The notes under the pieces are model-generated. The model was given only the letters and a program-made list of their open reading frames with translations, was not told the origin of the DNA and ran no database searches. From the NCBI GenBank assembly GCA_947492995.1, contig CANLOU010000008.1, forward strand, positions 1 to 64,000: a stretch of DNA of 64,000 nt. The letters are read 5' to 3'. Of this stretch, positions 2,154-36,485 are shown in pieces; positions within the stretch are counted from its first letter, which is position 1; every line of letters begins with the position of its first letter. Source of the DNA: an uncultured Litoreibacter sp. (GTDB lineage Bacteria > Pseudomonadota > Alphaproteobacteria > Rhodobacterales > Rhodobacteraceae). The position numbers were made by a program, and so were the translations under genes.

Positions 2154-2225
2154 TTTGCGTTCTTGAAGGGGCTTTGCCCCTTCGCCACGCGGGCAAATCC
2201 CCAGGATATTTTTGAACATGGGAAG
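2154..2225 (+). repeat. dispersed hairpin element, copy 1
   Basis: First of three related elements in this window (others at 31821 and 36411). Layout: TTTGCGTTCTT, then an 8-bp perfect hairpin with a TTT loop (2165-2172 with 2176-2183), then GCCACGCGGGCAAA, then an invariant tail AGGATATTTTTGAACATGGG with AAG after it. The leading TTTGC can also pair with the later GCAAA to form an outer stem. It lies 45 bp before the hisD start. Because the element is open in the hisD frame, automatic callers may extend hisD upstream into it. Confidence 0.85.
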
Positions 2226-2270
2226 ACGAGACGCGTTGAGCATTTTGATGCGCTTGGGTATGGGGTTGGT

Positions 2271-3572
2271 ATGCCTATGTTTTTGAACAGCTCTGACGCG
2301 GGGTTTGACGCCGCATTTGCCTCGCTTTTGACGATGAAGCGGGAAGATTCGCCTGACGTGGATGACATTGTGGCGGGGATCATTTCCGACGTGCGCGCGC
2401 GCGGCGACGCCGCCGTGATTGAACTGACGGCGAAGTTTGACCGCTTGCACTTGACGCCCGAGACCCTGGCGTTTTCCAGGAGCGAGATTGCAGCGGAGGT
2501 GGCGAAAGTGTCGCCTGAGGACCGCGCAGCGTTGGAATTGGCCGCCGCGCGGATCAAGGCCTATCACGCGCGGCAATTGCCCTTTGATGAAAGCTGGGAG
2601 GGGCCGCATGGCGAGACGCTGGGTTGGCGTTGGGGGCCGGTGTCTGCGGCGGGCTTGTATGTGCCGGGCGGGCTTGCGAGCTACCCGTCATCTGTGCTGA
2701 TGAACGCGATCCCGGCGCGGGTGGCGGGGGTTGAACGTTTGGCGATTTGCGCCCCGACGCCCGATGGGGTGTGCAACCCGCTGGTGTTGCTGGCGGCGCA
2801 ATTGTCGGGCGTGGACACCATTTACCGCATCGGCGGCGCGCAGGCGATTGCCGCCCTGGCCTACGGGACCGAAACCATTGAAGCCGTCGACAAGATCACC
2901 GGGCCGGGCAACGCCTTTGTGGCGGCGGCCAAGCGGCGGGTCTTTGGCAAGGTGGGCATCGACATGATCGCGGGCCCTTCCGAGATTTTGGTGATTGCGG
3001 ACCGCGACAATGACCCTGACTGGATCGCCGTGGATTTGCTGTCGCAGGCGGAGCATGACGAGAGCGCGCAGTCGATTTTGATCACCGATGACGCGGCTTT
3101 TGGGCAGGCAGTGGCGGAGGCCGTGGCGACGCGGTTGGAGACGTTGGAGCGGCGTGCGATTGCGGCCAAATCCTGGGAGGATTTCGGTGCGGTGGTCGTG
3201 GTGCGCGACATGGATGAAGCCGTGACGCTGTCGGACCGCATCGCGCCGGAGCATCTGGAAATCGCCTGCGCGGATGCGGATGGCGTGGCCGCGCAGATCA
3301 AACATGCAGGTGCGATATTCATTGGCGCTTGGACGCCGGAGGCGATTGGCGACTATATCGGGGGGCCGAACCATGTGCTGCCCACCGCGCGGTCTGCACG
3401 GTTTTCCAGCGGCCTGTCAGTGATGGATTTTGTAAAGCGGACCACGCTGTCGAAAATGACGCCGGAGGCCTTGTCGGCCATTGGGCCGTCGGCAGAGAGG
3501 CTGGCGCAGTCCGAGGGGTTGGAAGCCCATGGCTTGTCAGTCCGCGCCAGATTGGACAGGTTAAACACATGA
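2271..3572 (+). CDS. hisD: histidinol dehydrogenase
   Basis: Catalyses the last two oxidations of histidine synthesis, L-histidinol to L-histidine with two NAD+. The protein has 433 residues from ATG 2271. I prefer this start because an in-frame extension to 2151 would translate the intergenic hairpin repeat. Diagnostic motifs are GGLASYPSSVLMNAIPARVAG, the NAD-site GPGNAFVAAAK, the zinc-site region LLSQAEHDESAQS and the catalytic Glu-His pair in APEHLEI. The stop overlaps the next gene by ATGA. Other his genes are not adjacent. Confidence 0.97.
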   Translation: MPMFLNSSDAGFDAAFASLLTMKREDSPDVDDIVAGIISDVRARGDAAVIELTAKFDRLHLTPETLAFSRSEIAAEVAKVSPEDRAALELAAARIKAYHARQLPFDESWEGPHGETLGWRWGPVSAAGLYVPGGLASYPSSVLMNAIPARVAGVERLAICAPTPDGVCNPLVLLAAQLSGVDTIYRIGGAQAIAALAYGTETIEAVDKITGPGNAFVAAAKRRVFGKVGIDMIAGPSEILVIADRDNDPDWIAVDLLSQAEHDESAQSILITDDAAFGQAVAEAVATRLETLERRAIAAKSWEDFGAVVVVRDMDEAVTLSDRIAPEHLEIACADADGVAAQIKHAGAIFIGAWTPEAIGDYIGGPNHVLPTARSARFSSGLSVMDFVKRTTLSKMTPEALSAIGPSAERLAQSEGLEAHGLSVRARLDRLNT

Positions 3573-4039
3573 GCAAGCTGATCCATATCGAGATTGACGA
3601 CGCAGGGCTGCCGACGCCGACGCCGGAGATCGAGCAGGAGCGCAAGGTCGCGATATTTGATTTGTTGGAAGACAACTCGTTTGCCATCCCGCGTGACGGC
3701 GTGCCGGAGGGGCCATATCGCCTTGGGCTGGCCATTCGCGAGCGGCGTCTGGTTTTTGATGTGCAGACCGAGGCCGAGGACCCGGCGGCGGAATTCCATC
3801 TGTCTTTGGGGCCGTTCCGGCAGGTGGTGAAGGATTATTTCCAGATCTGCGAAAGCTATTTCGACGCGGTCAAAACCCTGCCGCCCAGCCAGATCGAGGC
3901 GATTGATATGGGGCGGCGCGGCATCCACAATGAGGGCGCGCGCATCCTGCAAGAGCGGCTGGAGGGCAAGGCGGAGGTCGACATAGACACGGCGCGCCGC
4001 CTGTTCACGCTGATCTGCGTCCTGCATTTCGGGGGCTGA
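3569..4039 (+). CDS. UPF0262 family protein
   Basis: A 156-residue soluble protein of the UPF0262 family, a conserved alphaproteobacterial family without assigned function that regularly follows hisD. The start ATG 3569 overlaps the hisD stop. Family features are the LIHIEIDD opening, RERRLVFDV, FHLSLGPFRQVVKDYFQICESY around the middle, and the C-terminal DTARRLFTLICVLHFGG. The larger frame open from 3329 is a hisD shadow and is not used. Spacing to the following phosphatase gene is four bases, so the three genes probably share one transcript. Confidence 0.93.
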   Translation: MSKLIHIEIDDAGLPTPTPEIEQERKVAIFDLLEDNSFAIPRDGVPEGPYRLGLAIRERRLVFDVQTEAEDPAAEFHLSLGPFRQVVKDYFQICESYFDAVKTLPPSQIEAIDMGRRGIHNEGARILQERLEGKAEVDIDTARRLFTLICVLHFGG

Positions 4040-4043
4040 GGGG

Positions 4044-4502
4044 GTGAGCGCAGAACGTCCACAATCGGTTTTGTTCTGCTGCGACCACAACGCTGTCCGC
4101 TCGCCCATGGCCGAGGGGATGATGAAGAAATTCTACGGGACCGAGATCTATGTGCAGTCGGCCGGCGTAAAGAATGATCTGGACGTGGACGGGTTCTCGA
4201 TCACGGTGTGCGAAGAGGTTGGGGTTACCATTTCCCGGCACCGGACCCGCAGCTTTGAAGAGATGCAGGAATGGGGCGACGACCTGTCGGGGTTTGACCT
4301 GGTGGTGGCGCTGAGCCCCGCGTCGCAGCGGCAAGCGCTTGAGCTGACGCGGTATTTTCATCTGGACGTGGAATACTGGCCGATCCTTGACCCAACTGGT
4401 TTGGGTGAGGGGCGCGAAGAGAAGCTGAATTCCTACCGGCAGGCGCGCGACCAGATCAAGACGCGGATTCAACAGCGATTTGGCCCGCCGACCGCCCAAT
4501 AG
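4044..4502 (+). CDS. low molecular weight protein-tyrosine-phosphatase-like protein
   Basis: A 152-residue member of the LMW-PTP/arsenate reductase fold, starting at GTG 4044. The P-loop C-x5-R-S is present near the N-terminus as CDHNAVRS (Cys13, Arg19), and the conserved acid loop appears late as ILDPTGLG. It could act as a tyrosine phosphatase; arsenate reductase activity is less likely, since only the phosphatase loop is clear. In this order it sits between UPF0262 and infA, as in other Rhodobacteraceae. A strong hairpin terminator follows directly. Confidence 0.88.
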   Translation: MSAERPQSVLFCCDHNAVRSPMAEGMMKKFYGTEIYVQSAGVKNDLDVDGFSITVCEEVGVTISRHRTRSFEEMQEWGDDLSGFDLVVALSPASQRQALELTRYFHLDVEYWPILDPTGLGEGREEKLNSYRQARDQIKTRIQQRFGPPTAQ

Positions 4503-4509
4503 GCACAGC

Positions 4510-4547
4510 AAAACCGCTGAGCGGGCCGCGTTGGCCGTCAGCGTTTT
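4510..4547 (+). terminator. intrinsic terminator after the LMW phosphatase gene
   Basis: An interrupted stem AAAACCGCTGAGCGGGCC pairs with GGCCGTCAGCGTTTT around a GCGTT loop. It starts eight bases after the stop codon and ends in a short T run. Because of the A-run on the left arm it could also work on the other strand. Confidence 0.7.
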
Positions 4548-4900
4548 GCAAGGTCTCACCATATAGAAGCAGTGAAGGTAAAGAAGGCGGCGCCGCCATT
4601 AGGCTTATACCGGACGGGGAGCTACCCCCGCACCCTTTGGGGCTGTCGGCCCCTCTCACATGCGATTTTCAGGTGAGCGTCCACGACAGAGGGGCTTTTG
4701 GCCCATGACCCACGCTCCGAACCAGTTTTTGACGTCGTGGGAGGGTGTATCGCGTAAGTCTGAACGAGATGTAACCGGCCCGTTCGGTGCCACAGTTGCA
4801 GACGCAACGCCGCGTTCGCGCGTTTTGCCCTTGAAAAACCCCTAGGGGCGGCGCATTTAGTGCCACGGCCCGCATGAGGGTCAACAATTATGGAGTGAAC
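4548..4900 (+). other. long infA leader with a second hairpin
   Basis: This 353-bp gap before infA holds no convincing ORF. GCCCCTCT (4649-4656) pairs with AGAGGGGC (4688-4695), followed by TTTT. The enclosed sequence contains a further short CAC/GTG pairing, and the upstream stretch 4615-4645 also has complementary GGGG/CCCC runs. It may be a small RNA with its own terminator or a structured infA leader. I do not recognise a known RNA family: no tmRNA tag, SRP loop or 6S bubble is apparent. Confidence 0.4.
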
Positions 4901-5119
4901 ATGGCCAAGGAAGAACTGCTCGAATTTCCCGGTGTTGTGAAGGAACTCCTGCCTAACGCGACGTTTCGGGTCGAGCTGGAAAACGGCCATGAGATCATCG
5001 CGCATACGGCAGGCAAGATGCGCAAGAACCGCATCCGCGTTCTGGCAGGCGACAAGGTGCAGGTCGAAATGACCCCCTACGATCTGACCAAGGGTCGGAT
5101 TAACTATAGATTCAAATGA
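4901..5119 (+). CDS. infA: translation initiation factor IF-1
   Basis: IF-1 binds the A site of the 30S subunit during initiation and works with IF-2 and IF-3. The product has the standard 72 residues of a single S1/OB-fold: [53 protein letters not shown] and a C-terminal [12 protein letters not shown] 4901 is chosen over an in-frame upstream ATG at 4874 because MAKEE is the conserved start and the length then fits exactly. The stop overlaps the maf start (ATGA). Confidence 0.98.
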
Positions 5120-5706
5120 CGGCCCGCGCCGCCGACCCGAACCTCAAGCTGGTCTTGGGGTCTGGATCGCCGCGTCGTTTGGAATTGCTGGCACAGCTTG
5201 GCGTTGTGCCCGCAGATGTGCGCCCTCCCGACATTGACGAGACGCCCCTGAAGGCCGAGCTGCCGCGCATGTATTGCGCGCGCATTGCGCGGGGCAAGGC
5301 GGATGCGATGGTGCTGGCGGGCGACGAGGTGGCGCTGTGCGCCGACACCACCGTCGCCATGGGGCGGCGGATCATGGGCAAACCGGCGGACGAAAAAGAG
5401 GCGGCGGCGTTTTTGCTGGCGCTGTCGGGGCGCAGGCACCGGGTGATTACATCCGTCGTGGTGCGGCGGGGCGATGATTTCTGGTCCAAGGATGTGGTCA
5501 CCACTGTGAAGATGAAGATGCTGAGCGACGCCGAGTTGAACGGCTATCTGGCCATCGAAGACTGGCGCGGCAAGGCGGGTGGCTATGCGATCCAAGGCCC
5601 AGCGGGGGCGTTTATCCCGTGGATCCAAGGGTCCTACACCGGCGTTGTTGGCTTGCCGGTGGCGGAAGCGGCGTCCCTGCTGCGCACCGCGGGGTATGTG
5701 CTGTGA
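5116..5706 (+). CDS. maf: Maf family nucleotide pyrophosphatase
   Basis: Maf proteins hydrolyse non-canonical or pyrimidine nucleoside triphosphates to monophosphates (house-cleaning) and have been linked to septum control. The 196-residue protein carries the family signature [11 protein letters not shown] near residue 15, a DIDETPL loop, the [15 protein letters not shown] segment with the catalytic Asp, and [12 protein letters not shown] towards the C-terminus. It overlaps infA by ATGA and the downstream RNase gene by GTGA, so the cluster appears to be translated as a coupled unit. Confidence 0.95.
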
Positions 5707-6722
5707 AGGGTTTGCAAATCGTTCATGACGTGTTGGATGGCCGCCCTGCGGCGGCTTTGATGCGCGACGGGGTGCTGGATGACTTCCTGATAAGTGCGCC
5801 GGATGATGCGCCGCCCGTGCCGGGCTCGATCTTTCGCGCAATCACCGACCGCCCCTTGAAGGGGCAGGGCGGGATGATGATGAAACTGCCCGGCGGAGAT
5901 ATGGCGCTGTTTCGCGGCGCGAAGGGCCTGAAGCCGGGGGAGCCGCTGCTGGTGCAGGTGACCTCCTATGCCGAGGCCGGGAAGGCTGTGCCGGTCACCG
6001 ACAAGATTATCTTCAAGGGGCGCTACGTGATCGTGACGCCGGGGGCGGCGGGGATCAACGTGTCGCGCCAGATCCGCGATGAGGAAGAAAAGGTGCGGCT
6101 GCTTGACATACTGCACCAGTTTGAAATGCCTGAGGGCGTTGGGCTGATTGTGCGCTCCAGCGCGGACGGCGCATCAGAGGGCGACATTGAGGGCGAGGCT
6201 GACCATTTCCTTGGGCTGGCTGACGCGGTGCTGAACGACGGCGACTCCCAACCCGAATTGCTGGTCGATGGCGGCGACGCGCAGGAGGTCGGCGACCGTG
6301 AATGGCCCGTGGCCGAGACCGCTGACGGGTTTGAGGCGCATGGCGTGTTGGACGCCCTGGCGCTGCTGGACACCCCACAAGTGTCACTGGGCGGAACCAC
6401 CTTGTTCATCGAACCCACGCGGGCGCTGGTGGCGGTGGATGTGAATACGGGCGGGGATTTCTCGCCAGCATCGGGGCTGAAGGCCAATCTTGCTTGCGCG
6501 CGGGCGCTTCCGCGACAGCTGCGGCTGCGTGGGCTGGGCGGGCAGATCACGCTGGATTTGGCGCCTATGGCCAAGAAGGACCGCAAACAGTTCGAGCAGG
6601 CGCTGCGCTCTGCCTTCAAGGCCGATCCGGTCGAAACGGCGCTTGTTGGCTGGACCCCGCTGGGCCATTATGAGCTACAGCGCAAACGGGAGCGGCTGCC
6701 CGTCCCCTTTGGGCTGTTTTGA
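5703..6722 (+). CDS. short RNase E/G family ribonuclease
   Basis: A 339-residue member of the RNase E/G family starting at GTG 5703 (overlapping the maf stop). The degenerate S1-like part lies roughly at residues 38-120. The DNase I-like catalytic part has VDVNTGGDF and ITLDLAPM, the two Asp-bearing metal-site motifs equivalent to those of RNase E. The protein ends at LPVPFGLF, before the point where E. coli RNase E and RNase G place the CPxCxG zinc-link, and it has no long C-terminal scaffold. It is probably an auxiliary RNA processing enzyme; a full-length RNase E would be encoded elsewhere. Confidence 0.9.
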
Positions 6723-6743
6723 GTCAGGTAGGGATTGAGTAAC

Positions 6744-8162
6744 ATGCAAGTCGATTACAGCTTCGGCGTTTGGGAACTGAACGGAACCGAGCTTGGCGTC
6801 CCCGACTATCTGACCTTGACGATGACGGATGGCGACGACGCCCTGAATTACTACGGCCCTGCCGACCCCGATTATTTTTCGGTACTGCCACGGGCGCTTG
6901 GCGGGTTGGGCAATGACAGCTTTTACGGCGACGCCTTCCGCGCGCTGGGCGGCGCGGGTAACGACTTTTTCACCAATAACGGTTGGAACCAGTATTGGGA
7001 TGGGCCGGGCTATGCGTATAGCTACGGGCAGGGTGGCCGCGACACGTTTGTCGATTTCTACGGCAGCACGCAGTATTTCGGCGGCAGCGGCGACGATTTC
7101 TTCACCAATGTGGATTTTCTCACCCATTCGTTTGAGGGCGATCATGACATTGTGTCGCTGGGGCGCGGCGACGACACCGCGCATTGGGAGTTTTCCTTTA
7201 TCAGCGGGCCGGATGGTATTTTGCTGGAAGACCGTCTGGGCGAAATCAGCGGCGACGAGGGGCACGACACGCTGATTCTGACGCAGATCAATTCCGGGGT
7301 GGTTATCACCCGGGAGACCTCGATTGATTTCAGGGTGATGAACGAGGGGACGCTTGCGCTTGGCAACGCGACCTTCACCGATTTCGAGGCCGTGCGCATG
7401 GTGTTCGGATCCTCCACGCTGAACAATGTCAGCCTGACGGCTGGCGACGATTATCTGACCTGGTTCGACATGAATGGGGAAACATTCCGGCCAAATATTG
7501 AGGGCTACGATCCCGACCTCGTGCCGACCGGTCCACTGGTGATTAACGGTTTGGGCGGCAATGACTACATAGTTGGGTCATTGCATCGCAGCCGAGAAGT
7601 CATCAACGGCGGTAGCGGCGACGACATTATCACCGGCGGCGGCTCGTCCCGCGAGGGCCATCGCGAAACCCTGCGCGGCGGCAATGGCGACGACTATCTG
7701 TTTTTGGGAAGTGTCACGCTCTCGCCCTATTACAACGCGACCATGGCGGGCGGGAACGGGGCGGACGCCTTTGTTTTCAACCATTTCCAAACCGGTGCCA
7801 CGGTGACGGATTTTGAGGTCGGCATCGATACGGTGGTTCTGGATTTTGGGTCGTTGTCCCTGTCCGATATCGACGATTTGCGGCTGATTACCCAAGATGA
7901 CTGGAACCGGCTGCGGGTGATCCGCGACGATGAAGATGTCTTGCGTTTCTCATTCACCGTGGACCGAGTGGACGGGTTCCCCTCCAATGACCGCTACAAC
8001 GTGACCTATGACCGCCGCGACGGCTCCTTGTATTTCCAACGCCAGGACGATCTGTTCACCGAGGGGCTTGGTGAGGCCGTTGCCGTCTTTGAAAACGGCG
8101 CTGACCTGACCATCGACGACTTCGCCTTCATTGACCAAACCGGCTATGACCTGCTGGTCTGA
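6744..8162 (+). CDS. RTX-like calcium-binding repeat protein
   Basis: A 472-residue acidic protein rich in Gly, Asp and Asn, from ATG 6744 (an in-frame TTG at 6735 is less likely). It contains scattered RTX-like nonapeptides such as GGLGNDSFYGD, GGAGNDFF, GGSGDDFF, GGSGDDIITGGG and GGNGDDYLF, and the late segment GADAFVFNHF then FEVGIDTVVLDFG, typical of hemolysin-type calcium-binding C-termini. No classical signal peptide is visible, which fits type I secretion, but no ABC exporter is nearby. It lies between the RNase E/G gene and yacG, a place normally without such a gene. The enzymatic role, if any, is unknown. Confidence 0.8.
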   Translation: MQVDYSFGVWELNGTELGVPDYLTLTMTDGDDALNYYGPADPDYFSVLPRALGGLGNDSFYGDAFRALGGAGNDFFTNNGWNQYWDGPGYAYSYGQGGRDTFVDFYGSTQYFGGSGDDFFTNVDFLTHSFEGDHDIVSLGRGDDTAHWEFSFISGPDGILLEDRLGEISGDEGHDTLILTQINSGVVITRETSIDFRVMNEGTLALGNATFTDFEAVRMVFGSSTLNNVSLTAGDDYLTWFDMNGETFRPNIEGYDPDLVPTGPLVINGLGGNDYIVGSLHRSREVINGGSGDDIITGGGSSREGHRETLRGGNGDDYLFLGSVTLSPYYNATMAGGNGADAFVFNHFQTGATVTDFEVGIDTVVLDFGSLSLSDIDDLRLITQDDWNRLRVIRDDEDVLRFSFTVDRVDGFPSNDRYNVTYDRRDGSLYFQRQDDLFTEGLGEAVAVFENGADLTIDDFAFIDQTGYDLLV

Positions 8163-8183
8163 CCCGAAAGGAGCGTGGCACCG

Positions 8184-8390
8184 GTGAGTTGCCCCATTTG
8201 TTCCAAAGACATGGCGGAAAAATACCGCCCATTTTGTTCCAAACGATGCGCAGATATTGATCTGGGTAAGTGGATGACGGGCGCCTACGCGGTGGCAAGC
8301 GAAAGCGAAGACGACACAGACGAGCTGGTCCAAGAGCTGGACAAAGCAATGCGCGACCGCGCCGAGGATGACGCGTCAAAACTGCACTGA
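8184..8390 (+). CDS. yacG: DNA gyrase inhibitor YacG
   Basis: YacG is a small zinc protein that binds GyrB and inhibits gyrase. The 68-residue product has the zinc-binding pattern CPIC near the N-terminus and FCSKRC about 14 residues later, followed by DLGKWMTGAY and an acidic tail. I choose GTG 8184 rather than GTG 8175 because the AAAGGAG ribosome site (8167-8173) is ten bases from the former and only one from the latter. It normally sits directly behind the RNase E/G gene; here the RTX gene intervenes. Confidence 0.92.
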   Translation: MSCPICSKDMAEKYRPFCSKRCADIDLGKWMTGAYAVASESEDDTDELVQELDKAMRDRAEDDASKLH

Positions 8391-8422
8391 CGGGCTTTGT
8401 CGCGATTTTGCGAAATCCCCTC

Positions 8423-8451
8423 TGGACAGGCTGAAACCGCTGGCCTAAATA
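8423..8451 (+). promoter_or_regulatory. probable promoter of tRNA-Phe
   Basis: TGGACA (8423-8428) and TAAATA (8446-8451) are 17 bp apart, placing transcription start near 8459. The leader would contain the inverted repeat CGTTCGCA (8458-8465) and TGCGAACG (8479-8486) just before the tRNA, possibly a processing element. Confidence 0.5.
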
Positions 8452-8492
8452 GCGGAACGTTCGCACAGAATACCCTTATGCGAACGCCCGGT

Positions 8493-8567
8493 GCCCGGGT
8501 AGCTCAGGGGTAGAGCAGTGGATTGAAAATCCTCGTGTCGGTGGTTCAAATCCGCCCCTGGGCACCA
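8493..8567 (+). tRNA. tRNA-Phe (anticodon GAA)
   Basis: A full cloverleaf with acceptor GCCCGGG/CCTGGGC (one G-T pair), TA at positions 8-9, anticodon loop TTGAAAA and an encoded CCA (8565-8567). The anticodon stem GTGGA/TCCTC has one T-T mismatch. The position behind yacG is the usual one in Rhodobacteraceae. Confidence 0.97.
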
Positions 8568-8719
8568 TTTCAGACCTTCTTCACCTTCAGACCACAAATG
8601 CTGCGTCACGATGCAGGAAATTGTTGGGTATTGCGTCATATAGGTTGGCCCCCGCAGCAGTTCGGGTATCGTGTCGCCCAGAGCGCAAAGGCGCTTAGGC
8701 ATGTGAGGCGCTGACACTT

Positions 8720-9481
8720 ATGACCGACCTGACATGCATCACCTGGAACATCCATCGCGGACGCTGCAATGATGGCCGCTTCGACCCGGGGCGGATGCTT
8801 GACGCGTTGCGCCGTGAGGTTTGGAGCGATGACGCCCATGTTTTGATCCTGCAGGAGGCGGACGCGGAGGCAGCCCCGCATCACGGGGTGCTGGACATTG
8901 GCGACGTGGAGGCCGTGACCGGGCTGCGCCACCTGCACCGCGACCCTGCAACCAGATCAACGCCACAAAGCCACGGGTTTCTGGGCGTGGTTGTTTATGC
9001 TCACCCCGACATCAAGGTGGACGCTATGCGGCTTGTGGAACTGGGCGGGCTTTGCCCCCGTGGTGCGGTTGTGGCCGACCTGCGCAAAGATGGCGTTCCG
9101 CTGCGACTGCTGGCGACGCATCTGTCGTTGTCGCAAGTCCTTCGCGCCTCCCAGATGCGAGCGCTGTCCAAAGAGCTGCAAGGTTATGAGGTCAAACAAA
9201 CCGTGCTTTGCGGTGATCTGAACGAGTGGCGGCCCTGGGGCGGGTTGGCGTTGTCACGCTGGGCAATGGGACGAAAATTCACAGGCCCAGCCAAGGCAAG
9301 TTTCCCCATCAGATGGCCGCTTTTGCCGCTGGACCGCGTCTTGACCACGTCGGAGGGGCGGGTTGAAAAGGTCTCTGTGCTGGATGGGCCGGGCATTCGC
9401 GCGACCTCGGACCACCGGCCACTTTACGCAAATGTCTCTATCGGCGCGGCCACATCCGCGAAAACACGCCGTCACGTTTGA
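8720..9481 (+). CDS. endonuclease/exonuclease/phosphatase family protein
   Basis: A 253-residue EEP-fold protein. Motifs in order: TWNIHRGR (the metal-site Asn region), VLILQEAD with the metal-binding Glu, RLLATHLSLS, VLCGDLNEW with the catalytic Asp and Asn, and the terminal ATSDHRPLYA with the catalytic Asp-His. No signal peptide, so it is presumably cytoplasmic. The substrate (DNA, phospholipid or phosphoinositide-like) cannot be told from sequence. Its 3' end overlaps the convergent cytochrome b561 gene by 44 bp. Confidence 0.88.
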   Translation: MTDLTCITWNIHRGRCNDGRFDPGRMLDALRREVWSDDAHVLILQEADAEAAPHHGVLDIGDVEAVTGLRHLHRDPATRSTPQSHGFLGVVVYAHPDIKVDAMRLVELGGLCPRGAVVADLRKDGVPLRLLATHLSLSQVLRASQMRALSKELQGYEVKQTVLCGDLNEWRPWGGLALSRWAMGRKFTGPAKASFPIRWPLLPLDRVLTTSEGRVEKVSVLDGPGIRATSDHRPLYANVSIGAATSAKTRRHV

Positions 9482-9980: not shown

Positions 9981-10053
9981 TTCGATCTGCCTTGCTATGT
10001 CGTACTTTAAAGCCGGTGCGGCGCGCCCTGCCTGCCCCAATCCCGAGCAATGC

Positions 10054-14361: not shown

Positions 14362-14368
14362 CCCGCCA

Positions 14369-28726: not shown

Positions 28727-28801
28727 GTGTTCCCCACTCGCTGTGACTTGCGCGCTAGATATAAGGTGTCGGTGCCGCAGTTACCAGAAATTCGGTTCAG
28801 A

Positions 28802-29647: not shown

Positions 29648-29684
29648 CACGTGGCCCTTCGCTATCAGATATTTGTTAACATAC

Positions 29685-29712
29685 CAATTACAGGAGAAAA
29701 TAACTCCGGCAA
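29685..29712 (-). promoter_or_regulatory. possible promoter of the TerC-XpaC-TelA operon
   Basis: On the minus strand TTGCCG (29707-29712) and TAATTG (29685-29690) are 16 bp apart, 37 bp before the TerC start. Three of six bases match at -10 and the match at -35 is fair. Confidence 0.4.
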
Positions 29713-29729
29713 GGTGACGATGTCAGTTT

Positions 29730-30542
29730 TTAGCCCCGTGTTGGTGGCTTGCCGCGGCGTTGGGGCGGCTTTTTCTTGGGGCGGGGGGCGGCGTCTGGTT
29801 CGGCGATGCCAAGCTGGTCGCGCAGGACGCGGGATTTGACTTCCTCGACCTCGCCTTGCTTCAATTCATTCAGGCGAAACGGGCCATAGCTGACGCGGAT
29901 CAGGCGGTTCACCTTGAGGCCGACCTCTTCCATGGCGCGGCGGATTTCGCGGTTTTTGCCTTCGCGCAGCCCCACCGTCAGCCACGCGTTTGCGCCTTGT
30001 TGGCGGTCGAGCGTGACCTCCATCGGCTGAAAGCGCTCGCCCTCGGATGTGACGCCTTTTCTGAGTGGTTCCAAGGTCTTATCCTCGGGACGCCCGTTGA
30101 CGCGGACGCGGTATTTGCGCAGCCAGCCGGTGGAGGGGAGCTCTAATTGGCGCTTCAACCCGCCGTCATTGGTCAAAAGCAGCAGGCCCTCGGAATTGAT
30201 GTCGAGGCGGCCGACGGAGATGACGCGGGGCATATGGTCGGGCAGGGCGTCGAAAACGGTCTCGCGGCCCTTCTCGTCCTTCTCGGATGTGACGAGGCCA
30301 ATGGGCTTGTTGTAGAGCCACATGCGGGGGCGGTCGGGGGTGCCTATCTCTTTGCCATCAAAGGTTATTTTGTCATCTGGGGTGACGTTCAGGGCAGGGC
30401 TGTCGATGACCTTGCCGTTGACGGTGACGCGGCCTGCGGCGATCAGGGCCTCGGACCCACGGCGCGAGGCGATACCTGCGCGGGCAAGGACTTTGGCGAT
30501 GCGGTCGCCGGCGGGGGTCTTGGGGGGTGATTTGTCAGACAT
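29730..30542 (-). CDS. RsuA/RluB-type pseudouridine synthase
   Basis: A 270-residue pseudouridine synthase acting on rRNA. An S4-like domain occupies residues about 10-60 (RIAKVLARAGIASRRGSEAL, GRVTVNGKVI). The catalytic Asp is in VGRLDINSEGLLLLTNDG, and EGKNREIRRAMEEVGLKVNRL is the conserved basic motif. A Lys/Pro/Arg-rich tail ends the protein. It most resembles RluB, which modifies 23S rRNA, but RsuA or RluF specificity cannot be excluded from sequence. It lies 82 bp before TerC on the same strand and is divergent from tadA. Confidence 0.9.
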   Translation of the reverse strand: MSDKSPPKTPAGDRIAKVLARAGIASRRGSEALIAAGRVTVNGKVIDSPALNVTPDDKITFDGKEIGTPDRPRMWLYNKPIGLVTSEKDEKGRETVFDALPDHMPRVISVGRLDINSEGLLLLTNDGGLKRQLELPSTGWLRKYRVRVNGRPEDKTLEPLRKGVTSEGERFQPMEVTLDRQQGANAWLTVGLREGKNREIRRAMEEVGLKVNRLIRVSYGPFRLNELKQGEVEEVKSRVLRDQLGIAEPDAAPRPKKKPPQRRGKPPTRG

Positions 30543-30615
30543 TGCAGGGGTTTAGCGGGTTGGCGCGCCTAGGGAAAGGCTTTGCGTTAAGCCGTTGATT
30601 TGGTTAGGGAAGATC

Positions 30616-31071
30616 ATGGAATTCACGTCTCATATGGATATTGCGCTGGCGGAGGCGCGCGCGGCGGCGGCACGTGGCGAAGTGCCGGTGGGCGCGGTTG
30701 TCATTGGGCCGGACGGAGAGGTCCTGGCGCGGGCTGGAAACCGTGTGCTGGAGGGGCATAATCCGGCAGGACATGCGGAGGTTCTGGCCATTCAGGAAGC
30801 CTGCAAAACCCTGCAATCTGAACGGCTTACGGGGTGTTCGATCTATGTAACGCTGGAGCCATGTGCCATGTGCGCGGGCCTGATTTCGCAGGCGCGGATC
30901 GCGCGGGTTTACTATGGGGCGAGCGATCCCAAATCGGGGGGCGTTGCTCAAGGCGCGCGGGTGTTTGAGCAGGCGCAGAGCCATCACACCCCAGAGGTCT
31001 ATGACGGCATTTGCGAGGCCGAGTCGGCGGCGTTATTGCGGGCATTCTTTGCCGCGAAACGGGCGCGTTAA
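30616..31071 (+). CDS. tadA: tRNA-specific adenosine deaminase
   Basis: TadA converts A34 to inosine in tRNA-Arg(ACG). The 151-residue protein has the zinc deaminase motifs NPAGHAEVLAI (His and the proton-shuttling Glu) and EPCAMCAGLISQARI (two Cys ligands), plus GAVVIGPDGEVLARAGN. The start ATG 30616 fits the family better than the non-ATG extension to 30595. It is a single gene, with an unusual repeat-rich gap after its stop. Confidence 0.95.
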   Translation: MEFTSHMDIALAEARAAAARGEVPVGAVVIGPDGEVLARAGNRVLEGHNPAGHAEVLAIQEACKTLQSERLTGCSIYVTLEPCAMCAGLISQARIARVYYGASDPKSGGVAQGARVFEQAQSHHTPEVYDGICEAESAALLRAFFAAKRAR

Positions 31072-31088
31072 CCAATTCATAGGGCAAT

Positions 31089-31121
31089 GTGTATTTGATA
31101 TGTATTTCATGTGTATTCCAT
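31089..31121 (+). repeat. three 11-bp tandem repeats
   Basis: GTGTATTTGAT, ATGTATTTCAT and GTGTATTCCAT follow each other without gaps (31089-31099, 31100-31110, 31111-31121), differing at two or three positions. The 11-bp period puts equivalent bases on nearly the same face of the helix, as in multi-copy operator sites. They begin 17 bp after the tadA stop. Confidence 0.8.
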
Positions 31122-31270
31122 GCGCATGAGTTTGCGCAGACCCAAAAATCGTTAACGCCGCGTGGCAGAAGGGGCACGGTTTTGCTTGCCCCTAGGGAAA
31201 CCCCTTTGACCCGAATCGAGGGGTCGGGTATTCGCCCGTCACTGCAACACCAAACCCAAGGAGGCCGATC

Positions 31271-31351
31271 ATGACTCATAATCCATCACGCGAAGCCCTT
31301 TGGTCAGGTATGCAGGTGGCGTTTGTGCCGCTGGGACGTGCGGCCAGCTAG
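31271..31351 (+). CDS. possible 26-residue peptide
   Basis: An ATG at 31271 lies four bases after a GGAGG core within CCAAGGAGGCC, one of the best ribosome sites in the window. It opens 26 codons ending in TAG. The peptide begins MTHNPSREALWSGMQ and ends VAFVPLGRAAS; it is neither strongly hydrophobic nor strongly charged. It could be a leader peptide or a true small protein. No homologue is recognised. Confidence 0.45.
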   Translation: MTHNPSREALWSGMQVAFVPLGRAAS

Positions 31352-31510
31352 GCGTCACCCCACCATACTCAGCCAACCGCTGAGTCCTTTCCAAACCAAC
31401 CAAACCGACCCGGCCAAAACCACGCGCGATTTGCATCCGCATTTTGGCTTTGGGCAATTTCAACCAATAGGGAACCGGCATGGCTTTTGGCCACCGGTCG
31501 AGTGAACGAT

Positions 31511-31786
31511 ATGAATGCACTGCCATTGAAGCCACAAACCCCGCTGAGCGAGGTCGTTGATGATCTTGTTGCCGACTTCGGTGCGAAGCGGGTCTTACTT
31601 GCCCTTGTTGCGAGGTTGATTACGCGGACAAGACCCCCCGATACCACCGGGCTGCCATCCTTGCATGCGCAGCCCGGGGTGGAGGACCTGCCCGACGCCG
31701 TGCGGGCCGATATTGGGCTGCCGCCCAAAGAGAAGCGGGTGCAGCCGGATTTGCTTGCGGGCTACGTCTCGCGGCATTGGTTGTAG
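31511..31786 (+). CDS. hypothetical protein
   Basis: A 91-residue ORF from ATG 31511, ending seven bases before a palindromic terminator. The product has a helical N-terminal half (LSEVVDDLVADFGAKRVLLALVARLI) and a C-terminal half with LPDAVRADIGLPPKEK and a Trp near the end. Codon use matches the neighbours. It has no signal peptide or membrane helix. I do not recognise the family. Its own terminator implies an independent transcript. Confidence 0.7.
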   Translation: MNALPLKPQTPLSEVVDDLVADFGAKRVLLALVARLITRTRPPDTTGLPSLHAQPGVEDLPDAVRADIGLPPKEKRVQPDLLAGYVSRHWL

Positions 31787-31792
31787 AAGTGT

Positions 31793-31812
31793 CGGGCACC
31801 CGCGGGTGCCCG
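31793..31812 (+). terminator. palindromic terminator
   Basis: CGGGCACCCGCGGGTGCCCG is a perfect 20-bp palindrome followed by GCTCTTTGTTTT. It would end transcription of the 91-residue gene. It directly precedes copy 2 of the hairpin element. Confidence 0.75.
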
Positions 31813-31820
31813 GCTCTTTG

Positions 31821-31893
31821 TTTTGCGTTCTTTCAGGAGCTTTGCTCCTGAGCCACGCGGGCAAAACCTCAGGATATTTTTGAACATGGGAAG
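31821..31893 (+). repeat. dispersed hairpin element, copy 2
   Basis: Same layout as at 2154: TTTTGCGTTCTT, an 8-bp stem TCAGGAGC/GCTCCTGA (31833-31840 with 31844-31851) around TTT, GCCACGCGGGCAAAA, and the tail AGGATATTTTTGAACATGGG then AAG. It lies 72 bp before gatC. The stem sequence differs from the other copies, but every pair is kept. Confidence 0.85.
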
Positions 31894-31965
31894 CGGCGGA
31901 GAGCGGCACTTGAAGCGGCGTGATGTGGGGGGTAAACGGGACGGTGACTTTATCGGAGATGTTTC

Positions 31966-32253
31966 ATGTCGATTGACACCAAAACCGCCGGGCGCGTGGC
32001 GAAACTTGCCCGCATTGCCGTCCCTGAGAGCGCGTTGCCAACGCTGGCCGACGAGTTGAACGGCATTTTGGCTTTTATGGAGCAATTGAACGAGGTGGAT
32101 GTTGAGGGCGTAGAGCCGATGACATCGGTGACCCCGCAGCGCCTGAAGCGGCGTGAGGATGTTGTGACGGACGGCTCCCAGCAAGAGGCGGTTCTGGCCA
32201 ATGCGCCGGATGCGCGGGAAGGGTTTTTTGCAGTGCCGAAGGTGGTGGAATAA
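31966..32253 (+). CDS. gatC: Asp/Glu-tRNA(Asn/Gln) amidotransferase subunit C
   Basis: GatC stabilises the GatCAB complex that converts misacylated Glu-tRNA(Gln) and Asp-tRNA(Asn) to the amidated forms. The 95-residue product has the full family pattern: [73 protein letters not shown]. Its TAA overlaps the gatA ATG by one base (TAATG). gatB is not in the window. Confidence 0.97.
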
Positions 32254-33734
32254 TGGGCGAGCTCTCAAAACTGACGATTGCCGAGGCCCGCGACGGGATG
32301 CGCGCGGGCGCGTTTACATCTGTGGATGTGACCAAGGATTGTTTGGCCGAGATCGAAGGGGCAGGCGCGTTGAACGCCTTTGTGCACCACACACCCGAGA
32401 TTGCCCTGGATCAGGCGGCGGCCGCAGATGCGCGGATTGCGGGCGGCGACGCGCCTGCGATGTGCGGCGTGCCTTTGGGGATCAAGGATTTGTTTGCGAC
32501 CCGCGGCGTGGCGACACAGGCGGCGTCGTCCATCCTGAACGGGTTCAAGCCGGAATATGAAAGCACCATCACCCAGCAATTGTGGGATGCGGGCAGCGTG
32601 ATGCTGGGCAAGCTGAACATGGACCAGTTCGCGATGGGCTCGTCAAACGAGACATCGTGTTATGGCGACGTGGTGAACCCCTGGAAGATTGACGCGCGCA
32701 ATTTGACGCCGGGCGGGTCCTCGGGCGGGTCGGCCTCGGCGGTGGCGGGTGATTTATGTCTGGCGGCGACCGGGACCGATACGGGCGGGTCGATCCGCCA
32801 GCCTGCGGCCTTTGCGGGGATTGTGGGGATCAAGCCGACCTATGGGCGGTGTTCGCGCTGGGGCGTGGTGGCCTTTGCCTCCTCGCTGGACCAAGCTGGC
32901 CCGATGACCAAATCGGTGCGCGACGCGGCGATCATGTTGGAGGCCATGTCGGGCCATGACCCCAAGGATTCGACATCTGCCGAGCTGGCCGTGCCGGATT
33001 TCGAGGCGGCGTTGACAGGCGACATTCGCGGCAAGAAGATCGGCATCCCCGCGGAGTACCGTCTGGACGGCATGCCGCAGGAAATTGAGGATCTGTGGTC
33101 GCAAGGCATTGCGATGATGAAGGACGCAGGTGCGGAGATCGTCGACATTTCGCTGCCCCACACGAAATACGCGCTGCCCGCCTATTACGTCGTGGCCCCG
33201 GCGGAGGCGTCTTCCAATTTGGCGCGCTATGACGGGGTGCGCTTCGGGCACCGGGCCAGCCTGGCGCAGGGCGACGGCATCACCGAGATGTATGAAAAGA
33301 CCCGCGCCGAGGGGTTCGGCCCCGAAGTGCAGCGCCGCGTGATGATCGGGACCTACGTTTTGTCGGCGGGATTTTACGACGCCTATTACAACCGCGCGCG
33401 CAAGGTGCGCACGCTGATTAAGAAGGACTTTGAGGACGTGTTTGCCACCGGCGTGGACGCGATCCTGACGCCCGCGACCCCGTCCGCGGCCTTTGGCCTG
33501 GGTGAGATGAAAGACGCCGACCCCGTTCAAATGTATTTGAACGATGTCTTTACGGTCACGGTGAACCTTGCGGGGCTGCCGGGGATTGCGGTGCCCGCAG
33601 GGCTAGACAAACAAGGGCTTCCGCTGGGGTTGCAGCTGATTGGGCGGCCTTGGGAAGAGGCCGATTTGCTGAACCACGCCTACGCGTTGGAACAGGCGGC
33701 CGGATTTGTGGCGAAACCGGAGAAATGGTGGTAA
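32253..33734 (+). CDS. gatA: Asp/Glu-tRNA(Asn/Gln) amidotransferase subunit A
   Basis: GatA is the glutaminase subunit of GatCAB, an amidase-signature enzyme. The 493-residue protein has the normal length, and the Ser-cisSer-Lys triad is visible: Lys in [13 protein letters not shown], Ser in [15 protein letters not shown] and the nucleophilic Ser in [34 protein letters not shown] is the conserved late segment. Translation is probably coupled to gatC. Confidence 0.98.
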
Positions 33735-33802
33735 ACCATCCCCAAGGCGCCGGTACGAGCGCCCGTGATTGAACCAGTGTTTGACCAAGTGTGAGCGGAC
33801 CC

Positions 33803-34486
33803 ATGCGTATTATTCTTCCTCTTCTGGCTGTCGTCGCGGTGGCGGCATGCGCGCCCCCTGTGCCCGACAGCGCGGCGGGCGTCGGATTTGAGAATTACGA
33901 CACCTATATTGCGCAACAGCGCGCCCGCGATCAGCAACTTCGGACCGGTGCCGCACCAGCACCAGCTGCCGCGCCCGTGGCCACCCAGCCCCAGACCGAG
34001 GCGCAGATCACCGCCGCCGCCGCCGTGGCAGCCGTGCGCCCAGCCGGGGCGGTGACGACTACGACCCCCGCCGCCGCGCGGCCTGCGAGCAATAATTCGC
34101 AAATCTCTGACGAGCAGGATTTTGGGGCCGTCTCGGCGCGCCAATCCATCGAGTCCGATGCGCAGCGCCGTGCCGCCCAGTCGGCGCAATATCAGGTTGT
34201 GCAGCCGACGGCTGTACCCTCTCGTCCGGGGGGCGGTACGCCCACCCCGATTGAGTTTGCCGTGCAGGTCCGCCACCCCGTGGGGCAAAAGACCTACACG
34301 CGGTCCCCGTTCGGGGCCAGCAAAGCGCAGGCGAACTGCGCGGCTTACGTGACGTCTGATCTGGCGCAGGACGCGTTTTTGAAGGCGGGCGGGCCAGAGC
34401 GGGACAAGCTGAAGCTGGACCCTGACGGCGACGGCTACGCCTGCGGCTGGAACCCGGCCAAATACCGCCAACTGGTGCGCAACTGA
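33803..34486 (+). CDS. lipoprotein with C-terminal excalibur domain
   Basis: A 227-residue predicted lipoprotein (lipobox AVAACAPP near residue 16) starting at ATG 33803; an in-frame GTG at 33791 is the alternative. A long Ala/Pro/Thr/Gln-rich middle (about 45-130) is probably disordered and cell-wall spanning. The C-terminus has an excalibur-like calcium module: FGASKAQANCAAYVTSD, then LDPDGDGYACGWNP, the DxDxDGxxC motif. It runs into a peptidoglycan amidase gene, which supports a wall-associated role. Confidence 0.82.
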   Translation: MRIILPLLAVVAVAACAPPVPDSAAGVGFENYDTYIAQQRARDQQLRTGAAPAPAAAPVATQPQTEAQITAAAAVAAVRPAGAVTTTTPAAARPASNNSQISDEQDFGAVSARQSIESDAQRRAAQSAQYQVVQPTAVPSRPGGGTPTPIEFAVQVRHPVGQKTYTRSPFGASKAQANCAAYVTSDLAQDAFLKAGGPERDKLKLDPDGDGYACGWNPAKYRQLVRN

Positions 34487-34488
34487 GG

Positions 34489-35163
34489 CTGATCGGGCGC
34501 CCCTCGCCGAATTTTGGGCCCCGTAAGGACGGGGCCTTACCCGATATTGTTGTCATCCACTACACCGCCATGACCAGCGCAGAGGCGGCGTTTCGCGCGT
34601 TGTCGAACCCTGAGGTGGAGGTCTCGGCGCATTATCTGATTGCCGAGACCGGCGACGTGATGGCGATGGTCGACGAGGCGGAGCGGGCCTGGCATGCGGG
34701 CGCGGGGCGCTGGGGCGATGTGGTGGACGTCAATTCGCGCTCTATCGGAATTGAGCTGGCCAATGACGGGTTTTCGCCGTTTTCGGCGGCGTTGATGGAC
34801 GCATTGGAGGAGCTGCTGGTGGGGATCATGGAGCGGTGGGCCATTCCGGCGGAACGCGTGATTGCCCATTCCGACCTGGCGCCGGGGCGCAAGATTGATC
34901 CAGGCCGGCGGTTTGATTGGCAAAGGCTGGCGCGTCAGGAGCTGGCGGTTTGGCCGGAGCAGGGCGCGGGGGATGTTGATGCGTTTCGGGCCAATGCGGC
35001 CGCGTTTGGCTACACCGCGGATGTGGATGACGAGACGCTGTTGGCCGCGTTCCGGCTGCGGTTCAGGCCCTGGGCTAAGGGGCCATTGAGCGCGCGAGAC
35101 GCCGGATTGGCGGCGGATCTGGCACGGCGGTATCCTATTGACCGGCACGGGGTGGTCGCCTAG
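34489..35163 (+). CDS. N-acetylmuramoyl-L-alanine amidase (Amidase_2), probable CTG start
   Basis: A zinc amidase cutting the MurNAc-L-Ala bond of peptidoglycan. Zinc ligands are His in VVIHYTAM, His in VIAHSDLAPGRK and Asp in KIDPGRRFDW; a C-terminal peptidoglycan-binding-like part follows. The first ATG (34570) lies after the first zinc ligand, so it cannot be the start of a working enzyme. In frame upstream there is no ATG, GTG or TTG before a stop at 34423. CTG 34489 gives LIGRPSPNFGPRKDG, matching the usual family opening M-I-x-x-PSPNFG, so I place the start there (224 residues). CTG 34483, overlapping the lipoprotein stop, is the alternative. Confidence 0.78.
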   Translation: MIGRPSPNFGPRKDGALPDIVVIHYTAMTSAEAAFRALSNPEVEVSAHYLIAETGDVMAMVDEAERAWHAGAGRWGDVVDVNSRSIGIELANDGFSPFSAALMDALEELLVGIMERWAIPAERVIAHSDLAPGRKIDPGRRFDWQRLARQELAVWPEQGAGDVDAFRANAAAFGYTADVDDETLLAAFRLRFRPWAKGPLSARDAGLAADLARRYPIDRHGVVA

Positions 35164-35166
35164 ACG
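35138..35166 (+). promoter_or_regulatory. promoter of rnpB
   Basis: TTGACC (35138-35143), a 17-bp spacer and TAGACG (35161-35166) place +1 at 35174, exactly where the RNase P RNA P1 helix begins. The promoter lies in the amidase coding end, and the -10 box includes its TAG stop. Confidence 0.75.
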
Positions 35167-35173
35167 CCGTGAT

Positions 35174-35583
35174 GCGCGGATGGCTGGATGGTCGCTGCGT
35201 TGTGTTTCCGCTTTGCCGAGACGCGACGTAGAGGAAAGTCCGGACTCCATGAAGAGACGGTGCCGGGTAACGCCCGGCGGGGGCAACCCCAGGGACAGCG
35301 CCACAGAGAACAGACCGCCTGACGCATCGCTTGCGATACGTCTGGTAAGGGTGAAACGGTGGAGTAAGAGACCACCGCGGGTCTGGCAACAGCCCCGGCA
35401 CGGCAAGCCCCACCGGGAGCAATGCCAAATAGGGACCTCGTGGTGCAAGCCAGGGCGTCTTTGGCCCGAGACGGTCCGGGTTGGCAGCTAGAGGGCCATG
35501 GGCAACCATGGCCTGAGATGAATGACCATCCATGGTCGGGGCAACCCGACCGGGACAGAATCCGGCTTACAGGCCGTCCGCGC
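35174..35583 (+). ncRNA. rnpB: RNase P RNA (bacterial type A)
   Basis: The catalytic RNA that matures tRNA 5' ends. The universally conserved AGAGGAAAGTCCGGACTCC is at about 35231-35249 and ACAGAATCCGGCTTACA at about 35556-35572. The 5' GCGCGGATGG pairs with the 3' CCGTCCGCGC to close helix P1, which fixes the ends at about 35174 and 35583 (410 nt). Multiple further helices and GGGCAACCC-type tetraloop stems are visible. A T5 run follows P1, forming the terminator. Confidence 0.97.
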
Positions 35584-35612
35584 TTTTTCCTTGATCTTGT
35601 GGTGATCGGAGT

Positions 35613-36389
35613 ATGACCTGTGTCTGCGGAAAGCCAGTGTTTCCGGAAAACCTGGGCCTGCGGAAAGGATATGTCTTGCGTATGGGAGCGGCAATTGTGG
35701 GCTTGAGTGCCCTTTTGGTGTTGGCCGCGCGCCTCACCCCATTTGGCACGGCGGTTGGAAACTGGATTTCAATGCTGGACCGCAACGGGTTCTTTGTTCC
35801 CGAGGACAGCTCTGTCTGGAGCTTCCGCGAGACGGTAAGCGACTCGGGAAGCGGCGGATATTGGTTATACGGCGAAGATGCGGCGGCGTTCTATGCCGCC
35901 GAGACGCGCGGCGGCGTGGAGCGCTACAGCCGCATCACCCGCCGCGCGGCGGCAGAGGTGGACGGGTTTGAGCCACATGATTTCGAGACATGGCGGCATT
36001 ATACGACGCTGCCCTGTGGCGATGTGCTGGCGATCTATGCCGAGCCGGTTGAGGGCCTGGAGTTTCTGAGCTGCGACCGGCCCGAGGACAGCCAGACCGT
36101 CATATCTGCGCGCTACCGCGTGCCGGGCGCGCGGGCGAAAGCGGTAGAAACTGCGCTGCTGCAGCGTTTCGGGATGGGCGCATTGGTTTGGGCCTGCTGC
36201 GGGTATGAGACGCGCAGCTATGGCGGGTTCGAGCATGACAGGCTGCGCCAATTGCATCCGTTTTTGAGCGTGAGCATCTCGATGGCAGGGGCGGGGGCGG
36301 GGTCCGGGAGCGACGGGCAGGAGATGCCCGTGCTGGACTTTGACCAGATTGAGTATTTTTACGTAACAGTCGACATTTCGCTTGTCTGA
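35613..36389 (+). CDS. hypothetical membrane-anchored protein
   Basis: A 258-residue product from ATG 35613, with an alternative in-frame ATG at 35682 that follows a GGAAAGGA site and starts immediately before a hydrophobic anchor (MGAAIVGLSALLVLAARL). The rest is a soluble, probably periplasmic domain with SVWSFRETVSDSGSGGYWLY, two Cys in LPCGDVL and LSCDRPED, and FDQIEYFYVTVDISLV at the end. I do not recognise a family. It stands alone behind rnpB. Confidence 0.7.
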   Translation: MTCVCGKPVFPENLGLRKGYVLRMGAAIVGLSALLVLAARLTPFGTAVGNWISMLDRNGFFVPEDSSVWSFRETVSDSGSGGYWLYGEDAAAFYAAETRGGVERYSRITRRAAAEVDGFEPHDFETWRHYTTLPCGDVLAIYAEPVEGLEFLSCDRPEDSQTVISARYRVPGARAKAVETALLQRFGMGALVWACCGYETRSYGGFEHDRLRQLHPFLSVSISMAGAGAGSGSDGQEMPVLDFDQIEYFYVTVDISLV

Positions 36390-36410
36390 GCGCGTTCCGC
36401 GCGCGTGATG

Positions 36411-36485
36411 TTTTGCGTTCTTTCGGGGATTTCATCCCCGAGCCACGCGGGCAAAACCCCTGAGGATATTTTTGAACATGGGAAG
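36411..36485 (+). repeat. dispersed hairpin element, copy 3
   Basis: Same layout as at 2154 and 31821: TTTTGCGTTCTT, stem TCGGGGAT/ATCCCCGA (36423-36430 with 36434-36441) around TTC, GCCACGCGGGCAAAA, CCCCTG and the tail AGGATATTTTTGAACATGGG then AAG. It lies 63 bp before ridA. Confidence 0.85.

Follow-up and report, generated by a model that had tools for sequence, protein, structure and literature searches.

Three element copies in the window

We analyzed a window of 64,000 nucleotides, namely positions 1 to 64,000 of contig CANLOU010000008.1 from an uncultured Litoreibacter sp. (assembly GCA_947492995.1). The genome to which it belongs (3.84 Mb) is referred to below as the home genome, and its nearest named kin is Litoreibacter. 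An initial annotation had noticed an intergenic element in three copies (2154-2225, 31821-31893 and 36411-36485), each with a different internal stem, and the positions and stems it gave are all correct. We put forward, as a tentative reading that falls short of probable, that the three copies represent a Rhodobacteraceae gene-end boundary element composed of two modules: a triplex-capable hairpin and a polar tail whose sequence differs between lineages as a dialect. Within each copy, an outer stem GCGT/ACGC with an internal TCTT/GCC encloses an 8-bp inner stem with a 3-nt loop, and is followed by GGGC, a C-rich run and the tail. The features are as follows.

2157..2190, + strand: copy 1, outer stem GCGT/ACGC (2157-2160, 2187-2190) and inner stem GAAGGGGC/GCCCCTTC (2165-2172, 2176-2183), loop TTT
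2198..2202, + strand: copy 1, TCCCC as proposed third strand, complementary in parallel orientation to AGGGG of the 5' arm
2204..2225, + strand: copy 1, tail GGATATTT-TTG-AACATGG-GAAG
31825..31858, + strand: copy 2, outer stem GCGT/ACGC (31825-31828, 31855-31858) and inner stem TCAGGAGC/GCTCCTGA (31833-31840, 31844-31851)
31867..31870, + strand: copy 2, CCTC as proposed third strand, complementary in parallel orientation to GGAG
31872..31893, + strand: copy 2, tail GGATATTT-TTG-AACATGG-GAAG
36415..36448, + strand: copy 3, outer stem GCGT/ACGC (36415-36418, 36445-36448) and inner stem TCGGGGAT/ATCCCCGA (36423-36430, 36434-36441)
36457..36461, + strand: copy 3, CCCCT as proposed third strand, complementary in parallel orientation to GGGGA
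36464..36485, + strand: copy 3, tail GGATATTT-TTG-AACATGG-GAAG
1662..2135, + strand: gene of 157 aa without NCBIfam match, its stop codon lying 5' of copy 1
2271..3572, + strand: hisD (TIGR00069), next gene 3' of copy 1
31487..31786, + strand: gene of 99 aa without NCBIfam match, its stop codon lying 5' of copy 2
31793..31824, + strand: GC hairpin CGGGCACCCGCGGGTGCCCG and then a T-rich stretch, 5' of copy 2, identified by eye as a separate intrinsic terminator-like structure
31966..32253, + strand: gatC (TIGR00135), next gene 3' of copy 2
35637..36389, + strand: gene of 250 aa without NCBIfam match, its stop codon lying 5' of copy 3
36549..36890, + strand: Rid-family gene, next 3' of copy 3, best match below the model cut-off

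RNA folding of the window copies gives minimum free energy z-scores of -4.10, -1.71 and -1.15. At the gathering score, Rfam has three matches in the window (RNase P RNA and two tRNAs) and none over the copies. Nor was a description of the element found in the open-access literature, a search in which subscription journals were sparsely represented. The RNase P RNA gene (Rfam RF00010, 35176-35585) lies upstream of the gene that precedes copy 3.

Covariation in the hairpin and a proposed third strand

In the three window copies all 24 stem cells are paired, and six of the eight stem positions have changed on both sides, where the initial annotation had counted at least five. These copies alone confer no significance, since shuffling the partners reaches the observed value in 163 of 1000 trials. 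A larger set of 16 long-type copies does confer it, nine from the home genome, five from two named Litoreibacter genomes and two from G070. The inner stem was counted in 15 of them, L053 being excluded because its inner arm is enlarged. All 105 inner-stem cells pair, six of seven pairs show two-sided change, and none of 1000 shuffles reaches this value. For the outer stem, counted in all 16 copies, 64/64 cells pair and three of four pairs change on both sides (0/1000 shuffles), with the variants GTGC/GCAC, TTGC/GCAA, GCGC/GCGC and CTGC/GCAG. The outer count is partly a product of selection, in that the search demanded at least three of the four outer pairs; the inner stem is free of any such selection. 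The claim of selection for structure, first raised on three copies, is supported on more of them, the pairing being kept throughout. The outer stem that varies is GCGT/ACGC, however, and not TTTTGC/GCAAAA as had been suggested.

A further relation, which like the dialects described below lay beyond what the initial annotation could see, is most readily recognized in the compact copy L064. This copy reads TGAGGGGC-tct-GCCCCTCA-A-ACTCCCCG; that is, the last segment complements the first without reversal and mirrors the second. In a loose test of 260 elements from the home and other genomes, 189 of them with a hairpin, the mean parallel match between arm and run was 4.90, compared with 4.09±0.07 for shuffled partners and with 4.50 for the antiparallel match. 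Among the 61 informative copies, the parallel match was the longer one in 30 and the antiparallel in one, with 30 ties. A strict test was confined to arms of only A/G and runs of only C/T, i.e., to 28 distinct arm/run pairs. Here the parallel match was better in 19, the antiparallel in two, and seven were ties. The parallel mean of 3.89 exceeds that of shuffled partners (2.48±0.28; 0/2000 reach it), whereas the antiparallel mean, 2.32 versus 2.36 when shuffled (1143/2000 reach it), is at chance level. An orthologous pair, L006 of the home genome and L091 of Litoreibacter (matched by one flanking gene, 93.6%), illustrates the change in all three strands: the arm differs by G/A, its partner by C/T, and the matching third-strand position likewise by C/T. 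The score with the own partner exceeds all shuffles in the home genome, Litoreibacter, G070, G087, G009 and a mixed set.

Several observations weigh against a parallel code of general validity. Twenty-one of the 28 strict-test pairs come from one genus; outside it, four are parallel, one is antiparallel and two are ties. In the loose test the preference is reversed in G009 (3 parallel, 8 antiparallel, 6 ties) and G010 (1, 7 and 2) and even in G098 (2, 2 and 4), and the score with the own partner does not exceed all shuffles in G010, G098, G136 or G152. A scan of 864 kb, comprising the window and samples of G009 and G034, yielded one parallel and four antiparallel matches adjoining a tail, from G009 and G034. 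In at least two of these (L218 and L238) the run duplicates the 3' arm, and might re-pair with the 5' arm. Minimal copies, which make up 45 of the 127 elements whose gene context was assigned and include one inside cobN, have neither such a third strand nor an orientation bias. Many copies are related, so the counts are not independent. Runs of C+.G-C triplets form poorly at neutral pH. In addition, PIT elements have been reported, in the part of the source consulted, to be without terminator activity (PMC4666352). Away from tails, the mirror pattern occurs in the same 864 kb as 12 parallel, 19 antiparallel and seven tied cases, two of the parallel ones (L210 and L234) being elements with a changed tail; this looks like background. 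Judged by these comparisons, the parallel code has support in Litoreibacter, G070, G087 and some others but lacks it for the family as a whole; G009, G010 and G034 do not follow it.

The antiparallel matches have their own possible explanation, namely mutually exclusive hairpins, with the C-rich run and the 3' arm as rivals for ordinary antiparallel pairing to the 5' arm. The run does often match a copy of the 3' arm in G009, G010 and G034, but the strict test gives no antiparallel signal (2.32 versus 2.36), and the constant CGGG at the tail junction may produce part of the matches, although this is not proven. We regard this explanation as very improbable.

We propose instead that the first module consists of one or two GC-rich hairpins and, after them, a pyrimidine run, which would lie in the major groove of the hairpin as a third strand, in the order purine arm, loop, pyrimidine arm, linker, Hoogsteen strand. 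In the cell, the triple helix might form as C+.G-C/T.A-T on the written strand or its RNA, or as G.G-C/A.A-T on the opposite DNA strand. Since runs of C+.G-C, unlike those of G.G-C, need a low pH, a triplex would form more easily on the DNA strand that lies opposite the written one. Purine-motif triplexes are described as unable to form in RNA and pyrimidine-motif ones as able to do so, according to the portion of the source available to us (PMC4666352).

We place the element beside the PIT/BoxC triplex repeats, as a probable distinct variant. As far as the parts of the source we consulted describe them (PMC4666352, classes I-IV), PIT, BoxC and TM-ECO of enterobacteria likewise carry three arms on the same strand, the third being mirror-related; their copies number from tens to about 150 in a genome, and their presence among relatives is patchy. 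TM-ECO, however, belongs to class II (Y-R-R), has a fixed sequence and is reported without gene orientation, and the text seen describes no tail. The present element would fall into class III when the written strand is considered, and into class I on the other. Its sequence varies, with the triplex code kept in part of the family, and it is oriented to 3' ends and carries a dialect tail. The class III arm order, i.e., a purine arm, a pyrimidine arm and a parallel Hoogsteen arm on one strand, is seen, as a pattern of covariation, in some of the copies and not in several genera. Compact copies such as L064, L117 and L132 fit the ITxF rule (stems of 6-15 nt, loops of 1-6 nt); the window copies do not, with a longer linker and a third strand of 4-5 nt. 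The TM-ECO/BoxC consensus, CCCTCNCCC N3-6 GGGNGAGGG N3 GGGNGAGGG, was not recognized when arm order and sequences were compared by inspection, without a pattern search. The only function reported for bacterial intrastrand triplex repeats, in what we saw of that source, is a link with genome instability (PMC4666352). A third strand that covaries with its hairpin would provide comparative evidence for a selected triplex, and supplies natural variants of it.

A bipartite tail with lineage dialects

All three window copies share the tail GGATATTT-TTG-AACATGG-GAAG, and to that extent the earlier description of an invariant tail holds. It is not part of one fixed repeat, however: many unrelated hairpins precede it, its 3-nt spacer is free and lineages differ. 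The general architecture is GRRTATTT-N3-X7-GAAG, nearly invariant except for the free spacer N3 and the lineage-dependent X7. Within many genomes X7 is nearly fixed, and it differs between them: AACATGG in the home genome and G077, AAGCAAT in G070 of the same genus, AACAGAA in G005, GCAAAAT in G009 and G016, GACAGAA in G002 and GCACATG in G087. Some genomes hold several, at least three each in G019 and G003; in G098, GAG-TATTT goes mostly with CCAAGAT and GGA-TATTT mostly with CCAGAAA.

Twelve orthologous pairs of the same dialect, three of them matched by one flank only, differ at 2 of 228 constant positions versus 16 of 36 spacer positions. We read this contrast as purifying selection on what is probably a recognized site with a free spacer. 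At nine sites where both neighbor genes are matched, the home genome or Litoreibacter carries a different dialect from G070; the site before hisD (copy 1) is matched by its upstream neighbor only. An exact template for the home dialect outside the elements was considered and rejected: every one of the 45 AACATGGGAAG copies belongs to an element (the spacer is 3 nt in 43 and 4 nt in two), which leaves room for a shorter guide. The motif GTTAACC or its reverse complement lies 22-100 nt from the tail start in 6 of 50 home, 4 of 47 Litoreibacter and none of 30 G070 elements, and is absent from two control windows; L002, L016, L019, L021 and L029 are examples downstream of the tail.

The home genome holds about 50 copies of the tail GGATATTT-N3-AACATGGGAAG. 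It yields 50 matches to TATTTTTGAACATGGGAAG with at most three mismatches (none to the reversed control), and 37 to AGGATATTTTTGAACATG with at most two, a few of which, such as L028, are not elements. The mismatches among the 50 fall mostly in the three bases after TATTT, and the rest mainly reflect two minor 7-mers, AACGAAG and AACGCAG. The form GGATATTT-N3-AACATGGGAAG was also found in 48 stretches of two named genomes, both uncultured Litoreibacter, in a search that possibly did not include the source genome; three single matches in unrelated groups (L101, L122 and L127) were taken as chance and excluded. For the broader pattern GRRTATTT-N10-GAAG, 196 genomes of the order were sampled, all of one family, the Rhodobacteraceae, and 186 of them have at least one match. 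The pattern has 20-149 matches in 84 of the 196, with at most three in either control column, and fewer than 20 in the other 112, many at chance level. Among 190 genomes of the class, the 187 outside the family have at most eight matches, and none reaches 20. The presence of the GGA form is patchy, with none in 10 of 21 genomes of the genus and in 17 of 61 of the family, yet two genomes of the genus without it, G068 and G075, have 10 and 21 matches to the GRR form. In Ruegeria pomeroyi, a carrier that offers a model strain, the initial 50 kb of the megaplasmid contain two copies (L243, at 12825 and 36665). Their spacer is 4 nt long, as it also is in two copies of the home genome (L201 and L202). 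Annotated plasmid stretches of Paracoccus and Dinoroseobacter, 50 kb each, contain none. As to similarity to plasmid or phage records, one copy was compared, and two plasmid records and one phage record gave only short, chance-like pieces; such similarity was set aside.

One site documents gain or loss of the whole element. In the home genome, G070, G019 and G032 it lies in frame inside cobN, antisense to it, after the residues DPFF (L076 ~1998-2019 and L168 ~1501-1522), and adds about 10-13 residues relative to G077. Each of these copies carries a 7-mer found elsewhere in the same genome, in the home genome the minor AACGCAG with one other copy, and those of G019 and G032 are slightly decayed. 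No element was found in cobN of G077, G069, G068, G003 and G233. CobN was sought in 30 genomes and matched in 23: the site was read in the seven with 73-91% identity, and of the 16 with 46-52% identity, 15 were run through a script that printed no site and L268 was left out.

The cobN presence and absence at a single position is what a mobile element would leave, whether related to repetitive extragenic palindromes (REP) and their associated tyrosine transposases (RAYT), to miniature inverted-repeat transposable elements (MITE) or to insertion sequences, its lineages giving rise to the dialects. The tail-to-tail pairs that recur at short distance in several genomes recall REP pairs, and, as with REP, bacterial interspersed mosaic elements and RAYT, these are intergenic structured repeats with several subfamilies in some genomes. 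In the present element, however, the conserved part is unpaired and the hairpin variable. The MITE-like origin considered in the initial annotation, with copying as one unit, fails to explain the same tail behind unrelated hairpins, the free spacer, in which differences are concentrated, and the lineage differences; dialects diverge at orthologous positions. A Y1 transposase is absent from the home genome and present in only 20 of the 196 genomes of the order, and most carriers lack one; a REP/RAYT system was rejected on these counts. We consider mobility the least probable of the explanations discussed here.

Gene ends and competing explanations

Gene context was assigned, with a home-made hexamer gene finder, for 127 elements: 50 from the home genome, 47 from Litoreibacter 403/2-670 and 30 of the 52 of G070, some of which are mutually orthologous. 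A mixed set of 31 elements from ten genera was dropped here because retraining the finder altered its calls. The 71 copies with a hairpin of at least 5 bp are sense-codirectional in 30 cases, convergent in 34, antisense-codirectional in seven and divergent in none; that is, 64 follow a sense stop codon, and in 54 of these the tail starts 40-100 nt past it. Where the downstream gene is antisense, its stop codon lies 0-6 nt past the tail in 25 of 41 cases. The 45 minimal copies (GCC-NNN-GGC-like) are distributed as 15 sense-codirectional, 10 convergent, 17 antisense-codirectional, one divergent and two unassigned, so that the upstream gene is sense in 25 and antisense in 18. The other 11 copies are sense-codirectional in four cases, convergent in five and divergent in two, with none antisense-codirectional. 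From these counts, the hairpin type is a 3'-end element and not a 5' leader, and the minimal type is bound to no single orientation. The distances to the next start codon in the window are 45, 72 and 63 nt, and the range of 45-72 bp in the initial annotation is right. Placement before a start codon is accidental, however, and family-wide the upstream stop codon is the better landmark.

This placement is also that of an ordinary intrinsic terminator, in which the hairpin and an AU-rich hybrid (GGAUAUUU) would end transcription in the free NNN, and the tail would be downstream DNA touched by RNA polymerase. Like Rho-independent terminators, the element has a GC hairpin just past a sense stop codon, with TATTT after the structure and tail-to-tail pairs at convergent gene ends. 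No uninterrupted T-run directly follows the hairpin, however; the element has GGATATTT-N3 there, and its U-run is short and interrupted. The 7-mer and GAAG further downstream are near-invariant among same-dialect orthologs and different between lineages, minimal copies show the antisense orientation almost as frequently as the sense one, and separate terminator-like hairpins with T-runs lie upstream of some copies (L031, L089 and copy 2). T-rich 7-mers occur between stop codon and hairpin in 21 of 73 cases versus 6 of 73 when shuffled. A terminator alone is rather unlikely, while being the most serious of the alternatives.

A different possibility is that the tail is a genome-wide polar recognition site, serving uptake, segregation or replication in the manner of DNA uptake sequences and uptake signal sequences (DUS/USS) or FtsK-orienting polar sequences (KOPS), which is tolerated at gene ends and which the hairpins merely expose. 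As with uptake sequences, a short, near-invariant motif shows lineage dialects, a preference for gene ends and inverted pairs; the spacer is free, and the cobN copy has a dialect of its genome. The written strand is the G-rich one in 104 of the 127 elements (40 of 49 convergent, 19 of 24 antisense-antisense) and, for the mixed set, in 23 of 31. This bias is not accounted for by gene orientation, given that the leading strand is credited with only 8-10% more genes in the section of the source consulted (PMC9836097). Among 20 regions sampled in each genome, those bearing copies agree with the sign of the skew in 7 of 7 cases in G009, a local inversion included, but in 0 of 2 in G034, and orientation alone, followed along G087 and G250, is more mixed. 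A purine-rich motif could also arise more readily on the G-rich strand, which would be a possible source of the bias. The element reaches at most 149 exact-pattern copies per genome in the 196 genomes, compared with generally about 1000 or more for uptake signals, as given in the excerpt we used (PMC1852404); its hairpins are separate from the motif, which is bipartite with a free spacer. We rate a polar site by itself as unlikely.

A terminator alone leaves the dialects and the minimal antisense copies unexplained, and a polar site alone leaves the hairpins, the triplex code and the sense placement unexplained. We favor a structure coupled to a recognized tail. The second module would then be the polar bipartite site GRRTATTT-N3-X7-GAAG, with X7 as the dialect, bound by a lineage-variable protein or by polymerase. 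The triplex might arrest polymerase or mark the end, mainly for RNA polymerase leaving the upstream gene, a role that we infer from placement. In its fullest form, this would be a gene-end element of one family in which an intrastrand triple helix, selected as its three-way covariation suggests, is coupled to a bipartite dialect site, and in which a putative fast-evolving factor recognizes tens to about 150 gene ends per genome and has re-tuned them in place; we hold this version to be possible, if doubtful in its entirety. The dialect tail would in that case point to a factor acting at gene ends.

Two minor observations concern the minimal copies. Upstream of the tail in some minimal-looking copies (L057, L062 and L065) lie AT-rich hairpins of the AAGAATTTT...AAAATTCTT type with a second hairpin after them, which by their appearance are another repeat. 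In the antisense minimal copies L043 and L061, the reverse complement of a GCCTCCGGC-like part places GGAGG, by eye, near the start codon of the neighbor gene, and in these two the element may double as its Shine-Dalgarno sequence.

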